Of a stretch of DNA of 33,853 bases, positions 1,598-11,590 are shown piece by piece (positions within the stretch are counted from its first letter, which is position 1; each line of letters starts with the position of its first letter). The position numbers and the translations under genes are program-made. The stretch covers positions 1 to 33,853 of the forward strand of contig JAILIV010000044.1 in assembly GCA_024695105.1 (NCBI GenBank). Direction: 5' to 3'. The notes beneath the pieces were generated by a model. That model was given only the letters and a program-made list of their open reading frames with translations. It had not been told where the DNA came from and did no database searches. Source of the DNA: Bacilli bacterium (GTDB lineage: Bacteria; Bacillota_I; Bacilli_A; RFN20; CAG-826).

Positions 1598-3199
1598 TTA
1601 CGCAGCGACGGTCTCTTTCGGACCCGTCATCATCTTGATGATTTCTTCGATTTCCTTCTCGGCGTCTAGACGCTGGAAAAGCACGTCACCCTTGTGGATT
1701 TCATTGCCCTTTAAGCAGCCAAAGGAATCAATTTCCTCATACGAAGGATTCGTCACTCCAAGGACGGAGAACGCCTCATCGGCTTTGTGAATAAGAATCG
1801 GAGAGAGCATCAAGGAGGCGGCGTAAATCACATGGGCCAAACGCGCCATGACGCCTTCTAACTCAGGCTTCTTCTCAGGATCTTTAGCCAAAGCCCAGGG
1901 AGCCTTCTCCTCAATGAATTTGTTCGCACGAGAAATCAATTCCATGACTTTCTCATACGCGGCGGTGACTTGGAGGTCATCGTTTAACGTCTCATAAGCG
2001 ACTTTGGTCGCACGGATTAAGGCGTCGATCTCCTCATCCAAGGCATCGCTGGCTTTGGTGTACTCGGGGATAATGCCACCGAAGTATTTGATGATCATCG
2101 ACGCGGTGCGGTTGAGCAGGTTGCCATAGTTGTTGACGAGGTCTTGGTTGACGCGCATTACGAACTGCTCTGGGGTGAACGTGCCGTTTTGGCCAAAGGG
2201 CACCTCGCTCACGAGGTAATAACGGACGGCGTCCACGCCATAGCGTTCAATTAATGGGTAAGCGGAAATGGCGTTGCCTTTGGATTTGCTCATCTTGCCG
2301 TCTTTCATCATTAAAAGGCCGTGAACAAACACACGATTCGGCTTCCGCAAGCCAAGGGAGCCAAGGAACATCGGCCAGTAGATCGTGTGGAAACGGTTGA
2401 TGTCCGCGCCGATGACATGGACGATCTCACTTTCCTCGTCCATCCAGAATTTCTGGAAGTTGGAGTCGTCTTCTTGGAGATAACCCAAGGCCGTGATGTA
2501 GTTGGTCAACGCATCCAGCCACACGTAGATCACGTGCTTCGGATTCTCAACGACTTGAATGCCCCAAGAGAAGCTGGTGCGGGAAACGCACAAGTCCAAT
2601 AAGCCAGGCTTGATAAACGTATTCACCATCTCGTTCTTTCTGGATTCGGGAGTAATGAAAAGCGGGTTGGAATCGTAATAAGCCAAAAGTTCGTCCGTAT
2701 ATTTCTGGCAACGGTAAAAATAGGCTTCCTCGTCCTTTTGTTCCACGGGACGGCCGCATTCGGGGCAAAGGTGGTTTTCTCCCACTTGGGTCTCGGTCCA
2801 GTAAGATTCCTCGTGAACGCAGTACCAACCCGAATAGGTGGAAAGATAGATGTCGTCCTTCTCCAACATCTTCGAGAAAATCTTCTGAACGGTCTTCTCG
2901 TGGCGAGGCTGGGTCGTGCGAATGAAATCGTCGTTGGAGATGCCCATCGCTTCCCAAAGGGAAAAGAACCGGGTCGCGACCTCGTCCACGAATTGCTGTG
3001 GGGTCACTCCTTTGGCTTGCGCGTTCTTTTGGATCTTCTCGCCATGTTCATCCAAACCGGTGAGGAAGAAGGTTTCAAAGCCACGCATCCTCTTGCCACG
3101 GGCGATGACGTCGCAAAGCGTCGTGCAGTAGGCGTGTCCTAGATGCGGGGACGCGGAAGGGTAATAGATTGGGGTGGTAATGTAGAACTTCTTGCTCAT
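1598..3199 (-). CDS. metG: methionyl-tRNA synthetase
   Basis: Class I aminoacyl-tRNA synthetase that charges tRNA-Met. The catalytic signatures are both present: HLGH at 19-22 (HIGH motif) and KMSKS at 302-306. The connective insert carries four cysteines (C127, C145, C148, C164), C145-x2-C148 being a zinc knuckle. LDEHGEK at 49-55 and the WLDALTNYI strand near 227-235 are also typical. At 533 residues it ends after the anticodon-binding helical domain and lacks the C-terminal EMAP/OB-fold tRNA-binding domain of the roughly 650-residue forms; nothing in the neighbouring sequence encodes that domain separately. The ATG has a good GGAG site seven bases upstream. It has its own extended -10 promoter in the 81-base gap behind the ligase-like gene, and rlmD follows 16 bases after the stop. 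Confidence 0.97.
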   Translation of the reverse strand: MSKKFYITTPIYYPSASPHLGHAYCTTLCDVIARGKRMRGFETFFLTGLDEHGEKIQKNAQAKGVTPQQFVDEVATRFFSLWEAMGISNDDFIRTTQPRHEKTVQKIFSKMLEKDDIYLSTYSGWYCVHEESYWTETQVGENHLCPECGRPVEQKDEEAYFYRCQKYTDELLAYYDSNPLFITPESRKNEMVNTFIKPGLLDLCVSRTSFSWGIQVVENPKHVIYVWLDALTNYITALGYLQEDDSNFQKFWMDEESEIVHVIGADINRFHTIYWPMFLGSLGLRKPNRVFVHGLLMMKDGKMSKSKGNAISAYPLIERYGVDAVRYYLVSEVPFGQNGTFTPEQFVMRVNQDLVNNYGNLLNRTASMIIKYFGGIIPEYTKASDALDEEIDALIRATKVAYETLNDDLQVTAAYEKVMELISRANKFIEEKAPWALAKDPEKKPELEGVMARLAHVIYAASLMLSPILIHKADEAFSVLGVTNPSYEEIDSFGCLKGNEIHKGDVLFQRLDAEKEIEEIIKMMTGPKETVAA

Positions 3200-3218
3200 G
3201 GTGTTTCTCCTATCTCCT

Positions 3219-3256
3219 TTGCCTTAAGGCAAGGGCCGAGCCGGCATATTGTAGCA
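3219..3256 (-). promoter_or_regulatory. metG promoter and leader palindrome
   Basis: On the minus strand TGCTACAAT (3248-3256) is an extended -10 element, with only a weak -35 17 bases upstream. It predicts a start near 3241 and a leader of about 42 bases. The leader carries the perfect 14-base palindrome TTGCCTTAAGGCAA (3219-3232) directly before the Shine-Dalgarno region. It has no loop, so it fits a dimeric protein site better than an RNA hairpin. The gap is too short for a T-box or SAM riboswitch. Confidence 0.5.
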
Positions 3257-3280
3257 CTCCCCCGCGCGGATAACAGGGGA

Positions 3281-5194
3281 TTACAAAAACCTCGGTGTGG
3301 GGTCATTCTCCTCCCGCGCCCTCCTAAAAGCGTCATTTTGGGCGCAAAAGGTCTCGCCCAAATACAAAAACCAGGAATCGGCATATCCTCGATGCGCCTT
3401 GAAAGCATAGGCCCCCGCGATTAAGGGGGCATAGCCCAAAAGCAAAGCGGCGGTCCATCCGTAACGCTCCGAACCAACGGCGGAAGAAACGGAGAACAAC
3501 AAAGCGCAGGAAACAATGCCAGCCAACGCAATCGGTAGCGCCGCTTCCTTTCCTTTTAGCAGGCCCGTGACGCAAATAAGACATAGTTCCAACGCAAAGG
3601 CCAAGACCCCGAGGCCAGCGGAATAGGCCGAGAAAGAGGCAGGCGCGGCAAAAGCCAAAGCCAAAATCAATCCATCAAAAACACCTAACCCATTTGGACT
3701 ACGAATGTCGTCGTTAACCAAAAGGGCCTCACCCAATTCTCCTTTTTTGGCGCTAACTTCGTCATGGAGAACGGGCATGATCACCACAAGGAACAGCATG
3801 ATTCCATATACGTCGGTTTCCAATGGGTTCAAAAACTCTGCGGCGGAAACAAGGGCATAGGCCAAGCATACGAAAACGACGGGGACATAGCCTTTTTGTT
3901 TTCGGTAGAATAGCCCCTTTCCCACCAAGAAAAGGAACCAAGCAGCGGCGCAGCCATAGATCGCCAAGCGAAGAATGCCTCCGTGGCTAATCATCTCTAG
4001 CCATGCGTTATGGCAATGGAACCACCCATAGCCAGGTTTGGCATAAGAAATAACATAGTTCGGCAGATAATCCCCAAAGCCAAAGACATAGGCGCTCGGT
4101 TGATGGTTCAGCAGGAAGAAAAACTTCTCCCAGACGTCGGTGCGCCCCGTCATCGTCTCCGCGTTTTCGATCATAAGCTCGTAATAGGAACGAAGCGCGC
4201 TTAAGCCAGGGAGTTGGACGTTGGCGATGACCAACGCGGCCACCGCGCCTAACGCCGCGAGGAAAACAAGGCAGCATATGGCGGTCACGCGGTGCCTCTT
4301 CCAGCCACTGATGCAGGCATACCCAATGAACAAGACGTCGAAGATCACGATCGCGGTGATTTCCACCTTGGCGAAAGAAAAGAAAGACGTCGCCAAGAAC
4401 AGACCCATGGGGATAAACCACCATGCGGCTTTGGTACGCCCATACCCAATCCCGCAGGCAAACGTCCCAATCATCAAGGCCATGCCCCAGAAATGGCGCT
4501 CCCCGGGAAGTGAGACGCAAGCATGGTCCGGACGCTCATGCGCCCCACCCTGCAGATAATGCGCATAGATGTGCCACTCCGCGATATACGAATACACGCA
4601 TAGCACCAAAACGCCGATGACGATGCCCGTAAGGGTAAGAATCCACACGTGTTTCCCTTTGCCTAAATGGGGCAACACACCGATAAGGAAATAAAGGGTT
4701 TCCAAAGTAAGGAAATAGCAACAGGCATAACGTACCTTCTCCGCGCTAGAGAACACGAAAAGGTAATCCGTAGGTTGCCCTACAAAGTAACCCGCGCCGT
4801 TATATAGGGGGAATCCCGAAAGCGTCTCCGCGCTTAACCCCGTCACGCTGCCGGCAAAAAGAACGGTGCATAGAACCAACAAGATCCAATTGGGGCGCTT
4901 ATGGAAGGCGATGTGCCCCACCACGATCAAGACGAGCCCGAGCAACGCCTCCCCGATAAGGATTCCGAAAAACACGGAATCGCTTTCGAAGGGCGGGTTC
5001 TCCACATAACGGTATTGCGGCATGCGGTAGGCCACCGCGGCGAAGAAGAGAAAAACGGCCGAGAGAAGACCATAGAGGAAGTAACTGACACGCAGGGTTT
5101 TTCTCTGTTCCACGGGGCTATCATAACCGCCCTTTAAGGGCGAGTCACCATAAACCGCCCAAACGAGGCGAAACGGCTTGCCTTTTTGTTTCAA
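3281..5194 (-). CDS. O-antigen ligase/Wzy-like polytopic membrane protein
   Basis: A 637-residue integral membrane protein with about a dozen or more hydrophobic segments (for example 37-55, 75-95, 102-120, 185-203, 238-250, 262-274, 303-325, 410-425, 436-450, 463-475, 508-545, 555-570, 582-597). Residues 349-405 resemble the conserved region of the WaaL/Wzy_C family: GRTDVW at 350-355, then a large loop ending HCHNAWLE at 393-400, and GGILRL before the next membrane segment. In that family the loop holds the active site that transfers or polymerises undecaprenyl-linked glycans outside the membrane. In a Gram-positive it would more likely act on a capsule or wall polymer than on lipopolysaccharide; the substrate is unknown. 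The frame starts with TTG at 5194 behind an AAGGATAAGG stretch; a GTG at residue 28 is an alternative. It is divergent from degV, with only 48 bases between the starts. Confidence 0.72.
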   Translation of the reverse strand: MKQKGKPFRLVWAVYGDSPLKGGYDSPVEQRKTLRVSYFLYGLLSAVFLFFAAVAYRMPQYRYVENPPFESDSVFFGILIGEALLGLVLIVVGHIAFHKRPNWILLVLCTVLFAGSVTGLSAETLSGFPLYNGAGYFVGQPTDYLFVFSSAEKVRYACCYFLTLETLYFLIGVLPHLGKGKHVWILTLTGIVIGVLVLCVYSYIAEWHIYAHYLQGGAHERPDHACVSLPGERHFWGMALMIGTFACGIGYGRTKAAWWFIPMGLFLATSFFSFAKVEITAIVIFDVLFIGYACISGWKRHRVTAICCLVFLAALGAVAALVIANVQLPGLSALRSYYELMIENAETMTGRTDVWEKFFFLLNHQPSAYVFGFGDYLPNYVISYAKPGYGWFHCHNAWLEMISHGGILRLAIYGCAAAWFLFLVGKGLFYRKQKGYVPVVFVCLAYALVSAAEFLNPLETDVYGIMLFLVVIMPVLHDEVSAKKGELGEALLVNDDIRSPNGLGVFDGLILALAFAAPASFSAYSAGLGVLAFALELCLICVTGLLKGKEAALPIALAGIVSCALLFSVSSAVGSERYGWTAALLLGYAPLIAGAYAFKAHRGYADSWFLYLGETFCAQNDAFRRAREENDPTPRFL

Positions 5195-6193: not shown

Positions 6194-7311
6194 GCATCCG
6201 TATCGAAGAAGTCAAAACCAAGAAACAGAAGCGGCTTTTCATCGACATGCCCTACGTCGTTGGGGTGGGCGATAACCCTAATTTCGTCCCACCGCTATTT
6301 GGCGATGAAATGAAAATCCTTAACGGCAAGACCGACTACGCCAAAGATAGCGATTCCGTTTTCTATATCGCCTATAAGGGCAATAAGCCCGTCGGCAGAA
6401 TCTCGGGCATCGTCCAGAGCGCGTACAACAAGGCTCATAATGAGAAGACCGCGCGCTTTACCCGCTTCGACTGCATCGATGACCTAGAGGTCGCGAAAGC
6501 GCTATTCGAAGCCGCCGAATCCTGGGCCAGAGCCCAAGGGATGAATATAATCGTTGGCCCCTTGGACTATTCCGACATGGAACGCGAGGGATTGCTAATC
6601 GAGGGCTTTGACCAAATGTCGACCTTTGAGGAGCAATACCACCCCGAGTATTACAAAAAACTCGTCGAGGCGTGCGGCTATGAAAAAGACGTGGATTATC
6701 TGGAGTTCCGTTTATACCCACCGAAAGAAAGAAGCGACCGCATTCAGCGAATCGCCAATGTCGCCTTGCGCATGAACAAGCTCCACGAGGCTCCTCTTTT
6801 GCCCATCAAACAATACGCGAAGAAATACTACAAAGGTTTCTTTGGCCTCATGAACGTCTGCTACGCCCATCTTTATGGCACCGTGGAATTCGATGAGGAG
6901 TCCGCCCTTGCGACCCTAAATCAGTTCTCGTCCATCTTGGATTCCCGTTTCGTGCCAATCATCCTCGACCAAAACGACAACGTCGTCGCAGCCGCGATTG
7001 CTTTCCCTGGTCTGAACGAAGCCATCAAACCTTCAAAAGGAAGATTGACCCTGCCTGCGCTATTACGGATCCGCAAAGCGGTCAAGAACCCCAAAACCGC
7101 GGACCTTGGCCTTATCGCCGTGCACCCCGACTACCAAAAGAAAGGGGTCAACGCCGTCTTCTTAGCGAAGATGATGGGGTTCTTCGACATCGGCGTGAAA
7201 TGGTTAGAGACCAACCTCAACCTCGAAACCAACGAAGACGTCATGTCCCAGTGGAAAGCCTTTGACGCCGTAAACCACAAGCGTAGAAGGGTCTATAAGA
7301 AAGTTTTATAA
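6190..7311 (+). CDS. GNAT-fold protein, YghO-like
   Basis: A 373-residue protein of the large, poorly characterised GNAT-like family related to E. coli YghO. The C-terminal half carries a recognisable acyl-CoA-binding motif: ADLGLIAVHPDYQKKGVNAVF, in which Q-K-K-G-V-N forms the pyrophosphate loop. The N-terminal half has another acetyltransferase-like core (VFYIAYKGNKPVGRISG, then ARFTRFDCIDD). A double-GNAT arrangement is therefore likely, with the second domain the better candidate for catalysis. The start overlaps the degV stop (ATGA), so the two are translationally coupled, and GGGGAAGG precedes the ATG. A strong terminator 16 bases after the stop closes this two-gene unit. The substrate is unknown; pairing with a fatty-acid-binding protein may hint at acyl transfer, which is inference only. 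Confidence 0.75.
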   Translation: MSIRIEEVKTKKQKRLFIDMPYVVGVGDNPNFVPPLFGDEMKILNGKTDYAKDSDSVFYIAYKGNKPVGRISGIVQSAYNKAHNEKTARFTRFDCIDDLEVAKALFEAAESWARAQGMNIIVGPLDYSDMEREGLLIEGFDQMSTFEEQYHPEYYKKLVEACGYEKDVDYLEFRLYPPKERSDRIQRIANVALRMNKLHEAPLLPIKQYAKKYYKGFFGLMNVCYAHLYGTVEFDEESALATLNQFSSILDSRFVPIILDQNDNVVAAAIAFPGLNEAIKPSKGRLTLPALLRIRKAVKNPKTADLGLIAVHPDYQKKGVNAVFLAKMMGFFDIGVKWLETNLNLETNEDVMSQWKAFDAVNHKRRRVYKKVL

Positions 7312-7326
7312 GCACACGTCCATTCT

Positions 7327-7351
7327 AAAACGGGGTCCTCCCCGTTTTTTT
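7327..7351 (+). terminator. rho-independent terminator after the degV-GNAT unit
   Basis: CGGGG (7331-7335), loop TCCT, CCCCG (7340-7344), extended by AAAA on the left and followed by a seven-T run. The AAAA/TTTT flanks also let it work on the opposite strand. It separates the degV-GNAT unit from the Sel1-TIR-NACHT gene that starts 64 bases later. Confidence 0.9.
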
Positions 7352-7414
7352 CATACGAAACGCTTTGCGGGCCCACGCCCAAAGAGGGAGAATATTTTTC
7401 TAAGAGAAACCGCC

Positions 7415-10400
7415 ATGAACAAATCCGCCGACGCATTATTAGAACTTGCCGAAAAGGGCGATGCCCAAGCAATGCTTGAGCTTGGTGATTGCTTCGTTGA
7501 AGGCGAAGGCGTGGAACAATCCTTGGAAGACGCCGCGAACTGGTACCAAAAAGCAGCGGACAACGGTCTAAAGGAAGCGGAGGAAAAAGCCGCGAAGTGT
7601 TACCTCGCCTTGGCTCGGGAAGGCGATCCGCTCTATATGTTTAACATTGGCCTTTGCTACTGCAACGGCGAAGGCGTGGAACAATCCTACGAAAAGGGGG
7701 CGGAATGGTATAAAAAGGCGGCCGATTTAGGGAATGCCGGCGCCATGAACAACCTCGGTCTCCTTTATCGCCACGGGCAAGGCGTCAAAGCCTCTGCCAG
7801 ACAAGCGGCCATTTGGTTCAAAAAGGCGGCCGAAAACGATAACCCCAATGGTTTTACCAACCTAGGTCTTCTTTATGAAGAGGTTGGAGATTTGGAAGAA
7901 GCGTTTCGCCAGTATTCGCTTGGGGCGGAAGGCGGCGACGCGAATGCCATGTTCAAGGTCGGATACCTCTATTACCACGGCATCGGCGTAGAGCAGTCCT
8001 TTGAAAAGGCCTTTGAATGGTATTCCAAAGGCGCGGAGCTTGGTAATACCGCGGCCATGTGGGGCCTCGGTGTTTGCTATCAATATGGGAAATGCGTCGA
8101 ACAATCCGACGAGAAGGCGTTTAAATGGTACGAACAGTCCGCGGAGGGCGGAGATCCGGATGGTCAATGCAAAACGGGCATCTTTCTTACCAACGGCTGG
8201 GGCACCGAAGCCGACCCCGAGAAAGCTTTTGAATACTTCCAAAGCGCCGCGGAAGCTGACAACCCCGACGCCATGTGCCACGTTGGCGATTGCTATTACA
8301 ACGGAGAAGGCGTCGAGCAGTCCTACGAGGAGGCGGTTCGCTGGTACGAAAAAGCGGCGGAGGTCGGAAACGAAGACGGCGAATGGGGCCTTGGCCTTTG
8401 CTACGAAAGAGGAAAAGGCGTCGAGCAGTCCTACGAGGAGGCTTTCGCTCACTACTTGAAAGCGGCAGAACACGGTGATGAACGCGCCATGTTTAAAGTG
8501 GGTTATCTCTACCACGGTGGGAAAGGCGTCAAGGAATCTTTGGAAGAAGCCGCGAAATGGTATCGAAAAGGAGCCGAACTTGGTGATTCATCCGCCGCCT
8601 GGGGCCTCGGCGTTTGCTATGAATACGGCGATGGCGTCGAGCAGTCCGACGAGAAGGCGTTTGAGTGGTACGAGCGTGCCGCGGAAGGTGGCGATGCGGA
8701 TGCGATGGCGCGAATCGCTTACTTCTACCAAAAGGGCCGTGGCGTCGAGCAATCCGACGAACAAGCGTACTTGTGGTATCTAAATGCCGCGGAGGAAGGC
8801 CTAGAAGAGGCGATGTGCGACGTTGGGGAATGCTACGAAAACGGCCGCGGAGTTGAACAATCGTGGGAAAAGGCGGCCGAATGGTATGAAAAATCCGCGA
8901 ACGCAGGATCGGCATGGGGCCAATTGTTCCTTGGTTATTGCTATGAAGATGGGCAAGGCGTCCCGAAATCGGAAGAAAAGGCCTTAGAACTATATCGTCT
9001 CGCGGCAGAGCAAGGGAATGCCAACGCCATGGCACGCGTAGGTGAGTATTACGAACGAGGCGGAATCGTCGAGCAGTCCTACGAGAAAGCCGCGGAATGG
9101 TATCGAAAAGCCGCGGGGAAAGGCAACGCCCGCGCCATGCTTTCGCTCGCCGCGCTTTACGATGGTGGCCAAGGCGTGGAGCAATCCGACGAAAAGGCGT
9201 TTGAATGGTGTCAAAAATCCGCCGAAGCCGGCAACGAGGACGCCATGAGCGTCCTTGGCTCTTATTACTATGAAGGCCACGGCGGCGTCGAAAAGTCTTA
9301 TAAGAAATCCGCCGAATGGTATGGCAAGGCCGAAGAGAACGGCAGTGACTACGCTTATTACGGCTTGGGCACCTTGTACGCCAAAGGTCTCGGCGTCCCG
9401 AGAAACCCGCAACTCGCCCTTGAATATTTCGAAAAAGCCATTGAGGCAGGCATCACCGAAGCCGAGGAGGGTCGCAATGAACTCCTCGCTGCCTTAGAAC
9501 AAGAGCGTGGCCAAACCAAGGCCGATACCTTTGAGATGGCCAAAGACACCGATGTCTTCGTGTCTTGGTACCACGAGGACGCCACGTTCAAAGACGCGTT
9601 GGTCAACCGCCTCGAAGAAGAAGGTCTGCGCGTCTACGACAGCGACCGCAAAGCGAAAGGCCCTTTGGATGAGACCATCAAAAACGCGATTAATAGCGCG
9701 GAATGCTTCGTGATCATCCTTACGGAAGAGGCCATCCGCAAATCCAACTACATGGCCAATGAGATCGAGTGGATCTTCCAACGCATCAAAGAGGAAAACC
9801 TCAGCACGAAGATGATCAAAATCTACACGGGCTCCACCGCCAGTGCTTTGGAAAAAGCCATCAAGGAACGCGGAGACGACCGTGGCTTTGGGCTGCTTTC
9901 TAACCTTTCCAAAGACTTTGGTCACGACCTATCTTCCTCCGTTGAAAACACCGTCCGCTTCGCAAAAGAATGCATCCGTGACTTCGCTTTGCTTAATTAC
10001 CGCAGGAATCTGGGTCGCCGTTACGTAGTGTTCCCGATGGCGTTAAGCGACATCATCACCAAAAACGCGGGCAGCGAAGTCAACGGCACGCTTCCGTTCG
10101 CGACCGGTTACCTAAACCGCGAAATCGTGGATACGAGGGACCCAAGCAAAGCATATGGTCCAGAAGACGTATTGCGTTCAAAAGCGTTCTTTATCCATGG
10201 GGACGGTGGGTCTGGAAAGAGCCTGTACCTGAAAAACTTGGTTCGCCTTTATTCGGGGGATGGGGATTTGTTCTTCTTATTGCCTTGCAGCGAAATCAAG
10301 AAGGAGCTGGACCAGCAAAACGGAGGGACGAATTTCCTCAATGCCCTGGAACGCATCTGCTTCCGCCACGACCCGAAGTGCCTGCGCTTGATGAATTCCT

Positions 10401-11590
10401 CCTTACACAATGTTTTCTTCGACAATCTAGATCTTCCCATTCATATCATCTTTGATGCGCTAGACGAGGCGGGCAACGCGGAAGAAAAGAAAAAGATTCT
10501 TGAAGCCGCCTTCGACGCTTTGCCGAATGAGAAGACAATCCATTATCTTTTCACCAGCCGAAGCCAAGATGACGAGACGCTCATCGCCAACATCCTCGGA
10601 GACGCCCCCATATCCGCGACCGTATCCCCCGTAAGCGATGCGCAGATCATGGAATTGTTCGACGCTTTCTATGCGCGTAATTTCAGCGGACAAAAGGGAA
10701 CCAGGGCTCCAAGCGTACCCAACGACCCCGAGAAACCCCGACCAACCAATGCGGAACCCACCCTCCAAAGCTCCGAACGGAGGTCTTTGGTCAACCGTGA
10801 CGCATTTGAAGAACATCTCGCCTTGCTCCCGGAAGACATCAAGAGAAACCCCCTGCTCGTCTCCAACCTCATTTACATCTATTTCGCAACGCGTGAACTT
10901 CGGACGGAACGCGCCTACGTTTTGGAACGTTCAACCGAAATCCTCGTCGACTATTTGGAAAACGAGCGCGGCACCATCACCGCGTTGGCCAAACCGTTAC
11001 GCGAAATGGGGATTAAACTGGGTAGTCTCCTTGCGTTCATCGCGTGGTTCACCAGCGTTAACGAGGCCGCGACCCTCGAAAGCACGGTCGAACTCTTCTT
11101 GGGCGAAAAGGCCAACGAAGAAGCCACAAAGACTGTTTGCCATGGCCTCCGCGGACGCCGTCTCATCCGTGGGGATGACTTCAGCCACAACATCTATCGT
11201 GCCTATTTTGCCGCGCGTTACATCTATGACAATGTCCTAGAACGGACCGCGAACAAATTCTTCGAAATAGAACTGCGCTTCAAGCCATCGGGCAAAGAAG
11301 ACCTTAAGGAATACGTCCATCGGTTCCTACGCCGAGAAGACGGATTATGGCCCGAGATCGCCCTCGACTTCGTGTGCAAACTCGACTACGAGCTAAACGA
11401 CCTCCTAAGCGGCCAGCCTTTGAAAGAAGACTCTACCAGCGGGAATGCGTTTGCGTTCGTCTTGGACGCGCTTCTACAGCCCGAAGGCATCGGCGGCGCG
11501 GCCTATGCCAAACTTGAAGAGGCCGTCCAACAGCCAGGATTACTGCATTATGCAAACTTTATCCGCAAGTATTTAAGACGAAACAAATAA
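7415..11590 (+). CDS. Sel1-repeat/TIR/NACHT NTPase fusion, putative NLR-like immune protein
   Basis: A 1391-residue cytoplasmic protein without signal peptide or membrane segments. Residues 20-684 are 18 Sel1-like repeats, mostly 36 residues, plus one degenerate short repeat at 55-75; most carry GVEQS in the inter-helix loop. Residues 711-820 form a TIR domain: strand A TDVFVSW, a BB-loop region near 742-750 (SDRKAKGP), and S777-x-Y779-x3-E783, where E783 matches the NADase glutamate. Residues 870-1391 are a STAND/NACHT module: Walker A GDGGSGKS (929-936), Walker B IIFDALDE (1011-1018) with the DxxDE form, sensor LFTSR (1045-1049), a Pro-rich insert at about 1089-1125, and the NACHT winged-helix signature FSHNIYRAYFAA (1256-1267). 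Bacterial TIR proteins deplete NAD+ or make signal nucleotides, and bacterial NACHT proteins defend against phage. The order is unusual: repeats are normally C-terminal. The Shine-Dalgarno is weak (AAGAG). It is monocistronic, between two terminators. Function is inferred. Confidence 0.85.
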   Translation: MNKSADALLELAEKGDAQAMLELGDCFVEGEGVEQSLEDAANWYQKAADNGLKEAEEKAAKCYLALAREGDPLYMFNIGLCYCNGEGVEQSYEKGAEWYKKAADLGNAGAMNNLGLLYRHGQGVKASARQAAIWFKKAAENDNPNGFTNLGLLYEEVGDLEEAFRQYSLGAEGGDANAMFKVGYLYYHGIGVEQSFEKAFEWYSKGAELGNTAAMWGLGVCYQYGKCVEQSDEKAFKWYEQSAEGGDPDGQCKTGIFLTNGWGTEADPEKAFEYFQSAAEADNPDAMCHVGDCYYNGEGVEQSYEEAVRWYEKAAEVGNEDGEWGLGLCYERGKGVEQSYEEAFAHYLKAAEHGDERAMFKVGYLYHGGKGVKESLEEAAKWYRKGAELGDSSAAWGLGVCYEYGDGVEQSDEKAFEWYERAAEGGDADAMARIAYFYQKGRGVEQSDEQAYLWYLNAAEEGLEEAMCDVGECYENGRGVEQSWEKAAEWYEKSANAGSAWGQLFLGYCYEDGQGVPKSEEKALELYRLAAEQGNANAMARVGEYYERGGIVEQSYEKAAEWYRKAAGKGNARAMLSLAALYDGGQGVEQSDEKAFEWCQKSAEAGNEDAMSVLGSYYYEGHGGVEKSYKKSAEWYGKAEENGSDYAYYGLGTLYAKGLGVPRNPQLALEYFEKAIEAGITEAEEGRNELLAALEQERGQTKADTFEMAKDTDVFVSWYHEDATFKDALVNRLEEEGLRVYDSDRKAKGPLDETIKNAINSAECFVIILTEEAIRKSNYMANEIEWIFQRIKEENLSTKMIKIYTGSTASALEKAIKERGDDRGFGLLSNLSKDFGHDLSSSVENTVRFAKECIRDFALLNYRRNLGRRYVVFPMALSDIITKNAGSEVNGTLPFATGYLNREIVDTRDPSKAYGPEDVLRSKAFFIHGDGGSGKSLYLKNLVRLYSGDGDLFFLLPCSEIKKELDQQNGGTNFLNALERICFRHDPKCLRLMNSSLHNVFFDNLDLPIHIIFDALDEAGNAEEKKKILEAAFDALPNEKTIHYLFTSRSQDDETLIANILGDAPISATVSPVSDAQIMELFDAFYARNFSGQKGTRAPSVPNDPEKPRPTNAEPTLQSSERRSLVNRDAFEEHLALLPEDIKRNPLLVSNLIYIYFATRELRTERAYVLERSTEILVDYLENERGTITALAKPLREMGIKLGSLLAFIAWFTSVNEAATLESTVELFLGEKANEEATKTVCHGLRGRRLIRGDDFSHNIYRAYFAARYIYDNVLERTANKFFEIELRFKPSGKEDLKEYVHRFLRREDGLWPEIALDFVCKLDYELNDLLSGQPLKEDSTSGNAFAFVLDALLQPEGIGGAAYAKLEEAVQQPGLLHYANFIRKYLRRNK

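Follow-up and report, generated by a model that had tools for sequence, protein, structure and literature searches.

Must a receptor of the nucleotide-binding leucine-rich-repeat (NLR) type carry its sensor behind the switch? Plant TIR-NB-LRR receptors possess an NB-ARC domain and C-terminal leucine-rich repeats (LRRs). A 33,853-nucleotide stretch of Bacilli DNA (assembly GCA_024695105.1, contig JAILIV010000044.1, positions 1 to 33,853; hereafter the window) encodes a protein in which a solenoid of Sel1 repeats precedes a TIR domain and a NACHT module, and four other proteins carry the same order; both the order and its conservation are near certain. For bacterial NACHT proteins, the published layout has an N-terminal effector, a central NACHT module, and a C-terminal sensor (PMC12169576). 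The gene and its parts lie in the window as follows.

7415..11590, + strand: gene for the 1391-residue Sel1-TIR-NACHT protein, ATG start (open reading frame call, Pfam)
7457..9448, + strand: Sel1 solenoid, residues 15-678, with 17 full 36-residue units and a shortened one at ~142-173 (Pfam Sel1, unit finder)
9551..9799, + strand: TIR domain core, residues 713-795 (TIR_2; profile match to plant RPV1/RUN1 TIR structures)
9761..9763, + strand: codon of Glu783, predicted catalytic glutamate (invariant in relatives; aligned with the Glu of RPV1/RUN1 SRWCLDE)
9980..11200, + strand: NACHT module, comprising nucleotide-binding, first helical and winged-helix domains (NBD-HD1-WHD), residues 856-1262 (fold match to NLRP3/NLRC4/NOD2)
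10199..10222, + strand: Walker A GDGGSGKS, residues 929-936 (motif position; K935 invariant)
10454..10468, + strand: Walker B region DALDE, residues 1014-1018 (motif position; D1014, D1017, and E1018 invariant)
11180..11215, + strand: winged-helix end motif FSHNIYRAYFAA, residues 1256-1267 (F1265 and A1266 invariant; end of the NLRP3/NLRC4/NOD2 match)
11216..11587, + strand: C-terminal helical tail, residues 1268-1391 (helices in the predicted structure; alignment with LRR-type relatives)

Domain order of the window protein

An earlier note on this DNA had proposed an inverted order of repeats, TIR, and NACHT, and the Pfam layout bears this out. Sel1 is matched in 17 stretches (E 1.6e-157), and a unit finder likewise places 17 units of 36 residues between positions 15 and 678; the 18 repeats first claimed are reached by adding a shortened unit, recognised by eye, at about 142-173. 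TIR_2 follows at 714-795 (E 1.2e-10, above cut-off) and NPHP3_N at 922-1049 (25.8 bits versus a cut-off of 24.8). With Sel1 units filling residues 15-678 and the TIR domain beginning at 713, the effector is not N-terminal. The positions given earlier for Walker A (929-936, with K935), DALDE (1014-1018), and the signature from 1256, which begins FSHNIYRAYF, are all exact, and the approximately 120 residues said to follow that signature were counted as 124 after residue 1267. Pfam returns neither NB-ARC nor any LRR family at E <= 0.1, and no Pfam family or recognised sensor domain was found in the tail, residues 1268-1391.

A family with the same order

The Sel1-TIR-NACHT order is a conserved family trait, present in five proteins, whose identity to the window protein over the TIR-NACHT part is 25-41%.

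P0001: the window protein
P0002: JAILEX010000031.1 (genome G021), Bacilli, the window's genus; start cut off by the contig end
P0003: CANQJK010000011.1, Clostridia
P0004: CADCGC010000027.1 (genome G228), recorded as Erysipelotrichaceae, the window's family
P0005: genome G881, of the same taxonomic order as the genome of P0003

Because the order is conserved in the four other proteins that a search across genomes brought to light, chance is excluded. The window's genome is a draft of 88 contigs, which might suggest that assembly or gene calling has joined a Sel1 gene to a TIR-NACHT gene; the four other assemblies, however, carry the same order in one open frame, with Sel1 units preceding the TIR domain and no internal stops in tblastn-type alignments, and this explanation, refuted by the relatives, retains almost no probability. 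Each of the five has Pfam matches, some below cut-off, to Sel1, to a TIR family, and to NACHT or a related P-loop family. Sel1 stretches number 7 in P0002 (cut at the contig start), 12 in P0003, 4 in P0004, and 10 in P0005, and Pfam and the unit finder together give 17, 7 or more, 12, 3-4, and 10 units for P0001-P0005. P0002 and P0004 clear the TIR_2 cut-off. P0003 falls below it and exceeds that of the other TIR model, PF01582; P0005 lies just under the cut-offs of both. The Sel1 array of P0003 is predicted as a regular two-helix solenoid, with a block predicted local distance difference test score (pLDDT) of 81-95. Residues invariant in all five include E783, K935, D1014, D1017, E1018, S1048, R1049, N1145, P1146, F1265, and A1266.

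Predicted activities of the TIR and NACHT parts

Since these residues are conserved, the TIR domain is likely an NAD+-cleaving enzyme (NADase) and the NACHT module likely a switch. A profile of four TIR-NACHT segments searched against the PDB recovers a TLR15/TLR2 entry (E 3.8e-5), RPV1 (2.3e-4), and RUN1 (4.8e-4), and in the profile alignments Glu783 pairs with the SRWCLDE glutamate of RPV1/RUN1, which we take to be catalytic; the window sequence alone finds only C. elegans TIR-1 (E 0.36). The proposal of a TIR domain with E783 in the catalytic position is upheld by a TIR_2 match above cut-off and by an exactly placed, invariant residue. For the NACHT module, the motifs, the NPHP3_N match, and a fold match of residues 856-1262 to NLRP3/NLRC4/NOD2, whose listed rows leave the TIR part uncovered, stand beside a Pfam NACHT score under its cut-off. 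Weak in Pfam terms, the NACHT assignment rests on the fold match and on relatives that pass the NACHT cut-off, namely one of the four with the Sel1 order (P0005, 31.9 bits) and two of the five TIR-NACHT-LRR proteins scanned (L021 and L059).

Normally ordered relatives

In six proteins whose TIR-NACHT core is related, the TIR domain is N-terminal and BspA-type LRRs (LRR_5) follow NACHT.

L021 (1829-7411) and L022 (1287-6753), window's genus: TIR-NACHT-LRR
L030 (2260-6168), sample of class Bacilli: TIR-NACHT-LRR
L057, L058, and L059, Clostridia order: TIR-NACHT-LRR

These sister proteins have the normal order, with C-terminal LRRs, and a core related to that of the Sel1 type. Pfam was run on all but L022, which is nearly identical to L021 across the TIR-NACHT part. 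The column of the catalytic glutamate (E83 of joint alignment A7) is kept in 11 of 12 rows, all six LRR-type relatives included; the exception is the distant TIR-NTPase L037. In the same alignment, the first part of the window-type tail aligns with the segment preceding the LRRs, and the Sel1 type ends roughly 60 residues past the segment that leads into them. In a tree of the TIR-NACHT part, a branch supported at 100/99 (96/99 after addition of L037) separates the five Sel1 proteins from the rest; lacking a sound root, the tree is silent on which order came first. The LRR-type set is no census, because its members came from searches that used the Sel1 type as query. As side observations, TIR-NACHT-LRR_5 proteins of 1302-1975 residues exist in Bacilli and Clostridia with a plant-like domain order; the homolog in genome G025 (L022) is split into two adjacent frames of 1421 and 387 residues, and that in G030 is one frame of 1860 residues.

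A family that breaks the usual order and has normally ordered relatives in the same genus offers a natural test of NLR activation against the attachment site of the solenoid, and receptor searches built around a C-terminal sensor could overlook or mislabel such proteins. A permuted receptor class, in which the TIR-NACHT core would work with LRRs behind the switch or Sel1 units before the effector, ligand binding could be coupled to the effector side, and the solenoid would be an exchangeable cassette, is put forward tentatively, at somewhat short of even confidence.

The solenoid as a possible sensor

We consider it somewhat probable that the window gene encodes a single-protein bacterial NLR-like TIR-NACHT receptor with its solenoid N-terminal, before the effector, a sensor function of the solenoid and an immune role being plausible. 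Sensing, NADase activity, oligomerization, and defence are the properties that we infer for it. In the resting state, an ADP-bound NACHT module would hold the TIR domain apart. The Sel1 superhelix would bind a ligand, most likely a protein that comes from a phage or another intruder, or a host protein that the intruder has changed; upon release, the NACHT module would bind ATP and form a ring via NBD-HD1-WHD. The TIR domains, tethered between ring and solenoid, would be brought close to one another and, through Glu783, act as NADases, and the loss of NAD+, or a signal nucleotide made from it, would stop the cell.

Several results weigh against this receptor reading. The Pfam NACHT match of the window protein (926-1082, E 6.9e-4) reaches 19.9 bits, under its cut-off of 26.7, and the predicted structure of residues 701-1391 has a mean pLDDT of 59, around 50 in the TIR part. 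PADLOC gives the protein weak TIR-type matches only, and its sole NCBIfam match of this kind, to EruA, an antiphage NACHT protein, is at chance level (E 0.083). The window neighbours scanned are of housekeeping type and include no known defence genes. Searches of plasmids and phages by tblastn with the TIR-NACHT parts of the window protein and P0003 found nothing, and none of 88 pattern matches in viral contigs was confirmed; carriage by mobile elements was accordingly rejected for these collections. Finally, Sel1-only genes taken as controls vary across their units as the receptor arrays do: the ratio of nonsynonymous to synonymous differences (pN/pS) at variable versus other positions is 1.03 versus 0.18 in the Sel1-only gene of L056 (15 of 16 units) and 0.96 versus 0.75 in that of the window's genome (14 units found). 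Because the controls show the same pattern, variability of the Sel1 face was rejected as a sensor mark and is not counted for sensing.

The most variable unit positions are 4, 7, 8, 11, 14, 15, and 17, picked from the entropy of four arrays, a choice that favours the result because the tested arrays belong to those four. At these positions units 1-11 of P0003 have a pN/pS of 1.24 versus 0.14 elsewhere (all 12 units, 1.30 versus 0.24; units 4-11, 1.12 versus 0.11); when 7 positions were drawn at random 1000 times, the ratio was reached once and the pN never, and positions chosen from the window alone give 0.92-0.96 versus 0.14-0.18 for units 1-11. Corresponding values are 1.11 versus 0.48 for the window array (16 of 17 units), 1.04 versus 0.31 for P0002 (6 of 7), and 0.84 versus 0.21 for P0005 (first 7 of 10). 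A unit's best partner lies in the same protein for 11/17, 6/7, 8/12, 0/3, and 1/10 units (window, P0002, P0003, P0004, P0005), so the evidence for tandem expansion of the arrays is mixed.

That variability is not specific to fused arrays also suits a different assignment of roles, in which the protein is an immune TIR-NACHT protein whose Sel1 array serves as scaffold, anchor, or autoinhibitory sleeve, and sensing falls to the NACHT module, the short tail, or a separate host protein bound by the solenoid. The tail residues D1318, K1322, D1324, and E1326 are kept in all five proteins, and the P0004 solenoid is degenerate, with 4 Sel1 stretches. As precedents, clade 14 bacterial NACHT proteins defend with only short C-terminal domains and bNACHT25 senses via the host chaperone DnaJ (PMC12169576). 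The tail nonetheless does not resemble an added sensor, because it begins with a part that aligns to the sister proteins' pre-LRR segment, and the differing unit numbers suit a changing binding surface at least equally. We judge this assignment possible but rather improbable. Still less likely is a role outside immunity, as a cytosolic signalling or stress regulator whose TIR domain is a protein-interaction module: although the housekeeping neighbourhood and the failure to find mobile-element carriage would fit such a regulator, Glu783 is invariant in the family and also present in all six LRR-type relatives, as would be expected of an enzyme, and the spread of the family is patchy.

Distribution

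At a threshold of 1e-6, six of 279 genomes of the window's taxonomic order matched: the window's own, G021 and G228 with long TIR-NACHT matches, and G016, G108, and G195 in the TIR part only. Genome contigs of 84,980 species, each represented by a single genome, were scanned by a method that depends on a few short peptide patterns; alignment A1 of the first three proteins gave three loci, the fourth member (CANQJK010000011.1) among them, and with the window protein alone 0/39 pattern matches were confirmed. The fifth member, in G881, came from a search around P0003's genome (Clostridia order). Genome-by-genome searches covered the window's phylum and the Clostridia order and class. Full-length matches, starting genomes included, number 3/224 in the window's family, 2/297 in the Clostridia order, 1/291 in a sample of the Clostridia class (G746 itself), and 1/395 and 1/392 in samples of the window's class and phylum (the window's own genome both times). 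Matches of any extent at the thresholds used amount to 10/224 in the window's family (3 of Sel1 type; 2 TIR-NACHT-LRR, G030 and G025; and 5 covering about the TIR part or slightly more, comprising the TIR-methyltransferase matches G108 and G016, G147 with TIR and another NTPase, G195, and G115), to 10/297 in the Clostridia order (2 of Sel1 type; 3 TIR-NACHT-LRR, G826, G914, and G963; and 5 in the TIR part, G861, G900, G920, G928, and G1009), and to 5/395 and 2/392 in the class and phylum samples, both including the TIR-NACHT-LRR genome G524. The spread is patchy, as for accessory defence genes.

Genomic setting

Upstream of the gene lie DegV-like and acetyltransferase genes, a Wzy-like gene, MetG, and RlmD, and downstream an open reading frame that we read as L31-like, a metallo-beta-lactamase-fold gene, TldD, and PmbA; further out are transporters, seryl-tRNA synthetase, a gyrase/topoisomerase IV A subunit, and the signal recognition particle RNA. 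No tRNA was found in the window, and a promoter scan upstream of the gene (7200-7450) found nothing. The G+C content of the gene (53.6%) is close to that of the window (53.4%). The defence-island setting raised in the earlier note was rejected for the window, given these neighbours and the lack of a PADLOC family on five of them, a verdict limited to the window in that the relatives' flanks were read in passing only. An empty-site comparison was uninformative: the neighbouring acetyltransferase gene has matches in just 4 of the genus's 31 genomes, counting that of the window, and in two of the other three (L063 and L065) different genes follow it by eye.

Relation to known systems

No description of the Sel1-TIR-NACHT order appeared in the portion of the literature available to our searches, and the suggestion that the order may be undescribed holds to that extent; the combination TIR-NACHT does occur in a paper on amphioxus. 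Like bNACHT proteins (e.g., bNACHT25, clades 6 and 14), the window protein is a single protein with a NACHT switch, and clade 6 has its effector in the same chain; it differs in its N-terminal solenoid, short helical tail past NACHT, and TIR effector. The TIR-NACHT-LRR relatives share the core, the glutamate column, the winged-helix region, and the following segment, and differ in having the textbook order, with TIR first and LRR_5 after NACHT. Plant TIR-NB-LRR proteins (RPV1, RUN1) have a related TIR domain with aligned glutamate and join switch and repeats in one chain, but with NB-ARC and C-terminal LRRs in place of the Sel1-TIR-NACHT layout. Avs5 (AVAST type 5) combines an NAD+-degrading effector, a signal transduction ATPase with numerous domains (STAND) switch, and helical repeats, with one Sel1 motif in PaAvs5-1 (PMC12931631); its effector is Sir2 and its repeats are C-terminal, whereas the window protein has TIR and a long N-terminal array. 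Sel1 is also named among the peptidoglycan-associating domains of another system (PMC7159879).

Sel1-only proteins and other TIR proteins

Sel1-only repeat proteins, encoded by C77 of the window's own genome and by the L056 gene (frame 1993-3789), share the 36-residue unit and lack TIR or NACHT in frame. The former (G000:C77, L075:3452-5443), a second long Sel1 protein in that genome, has 663 residues by the listed open reading frame, and no TIR or NACHT was found in the part read. The latter (L056:1993-3925, genome G881; 598 residues, 16 Sel1 stretches) immediately follows the Sel1-TIR-NACHT gene in the same orientation, and the pair are almost identical over ~125 bases before the start, including TTGACA-17-TATAAT, and over the first ~95 coding bases. 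The shared stretch is a tandem copy of the promoter and solenoid start, and the gene could supply new arrays to the receptor by recombination.

Separate TIR proteins with a methyltransferase domain (435-449 residues; TIR_2 E about 3e-17, Methyltransf_23/31) occur in related bacteria at L004:1459-2808 and L016:1498-2805, and several other TIR-part matches have frames of similar length.

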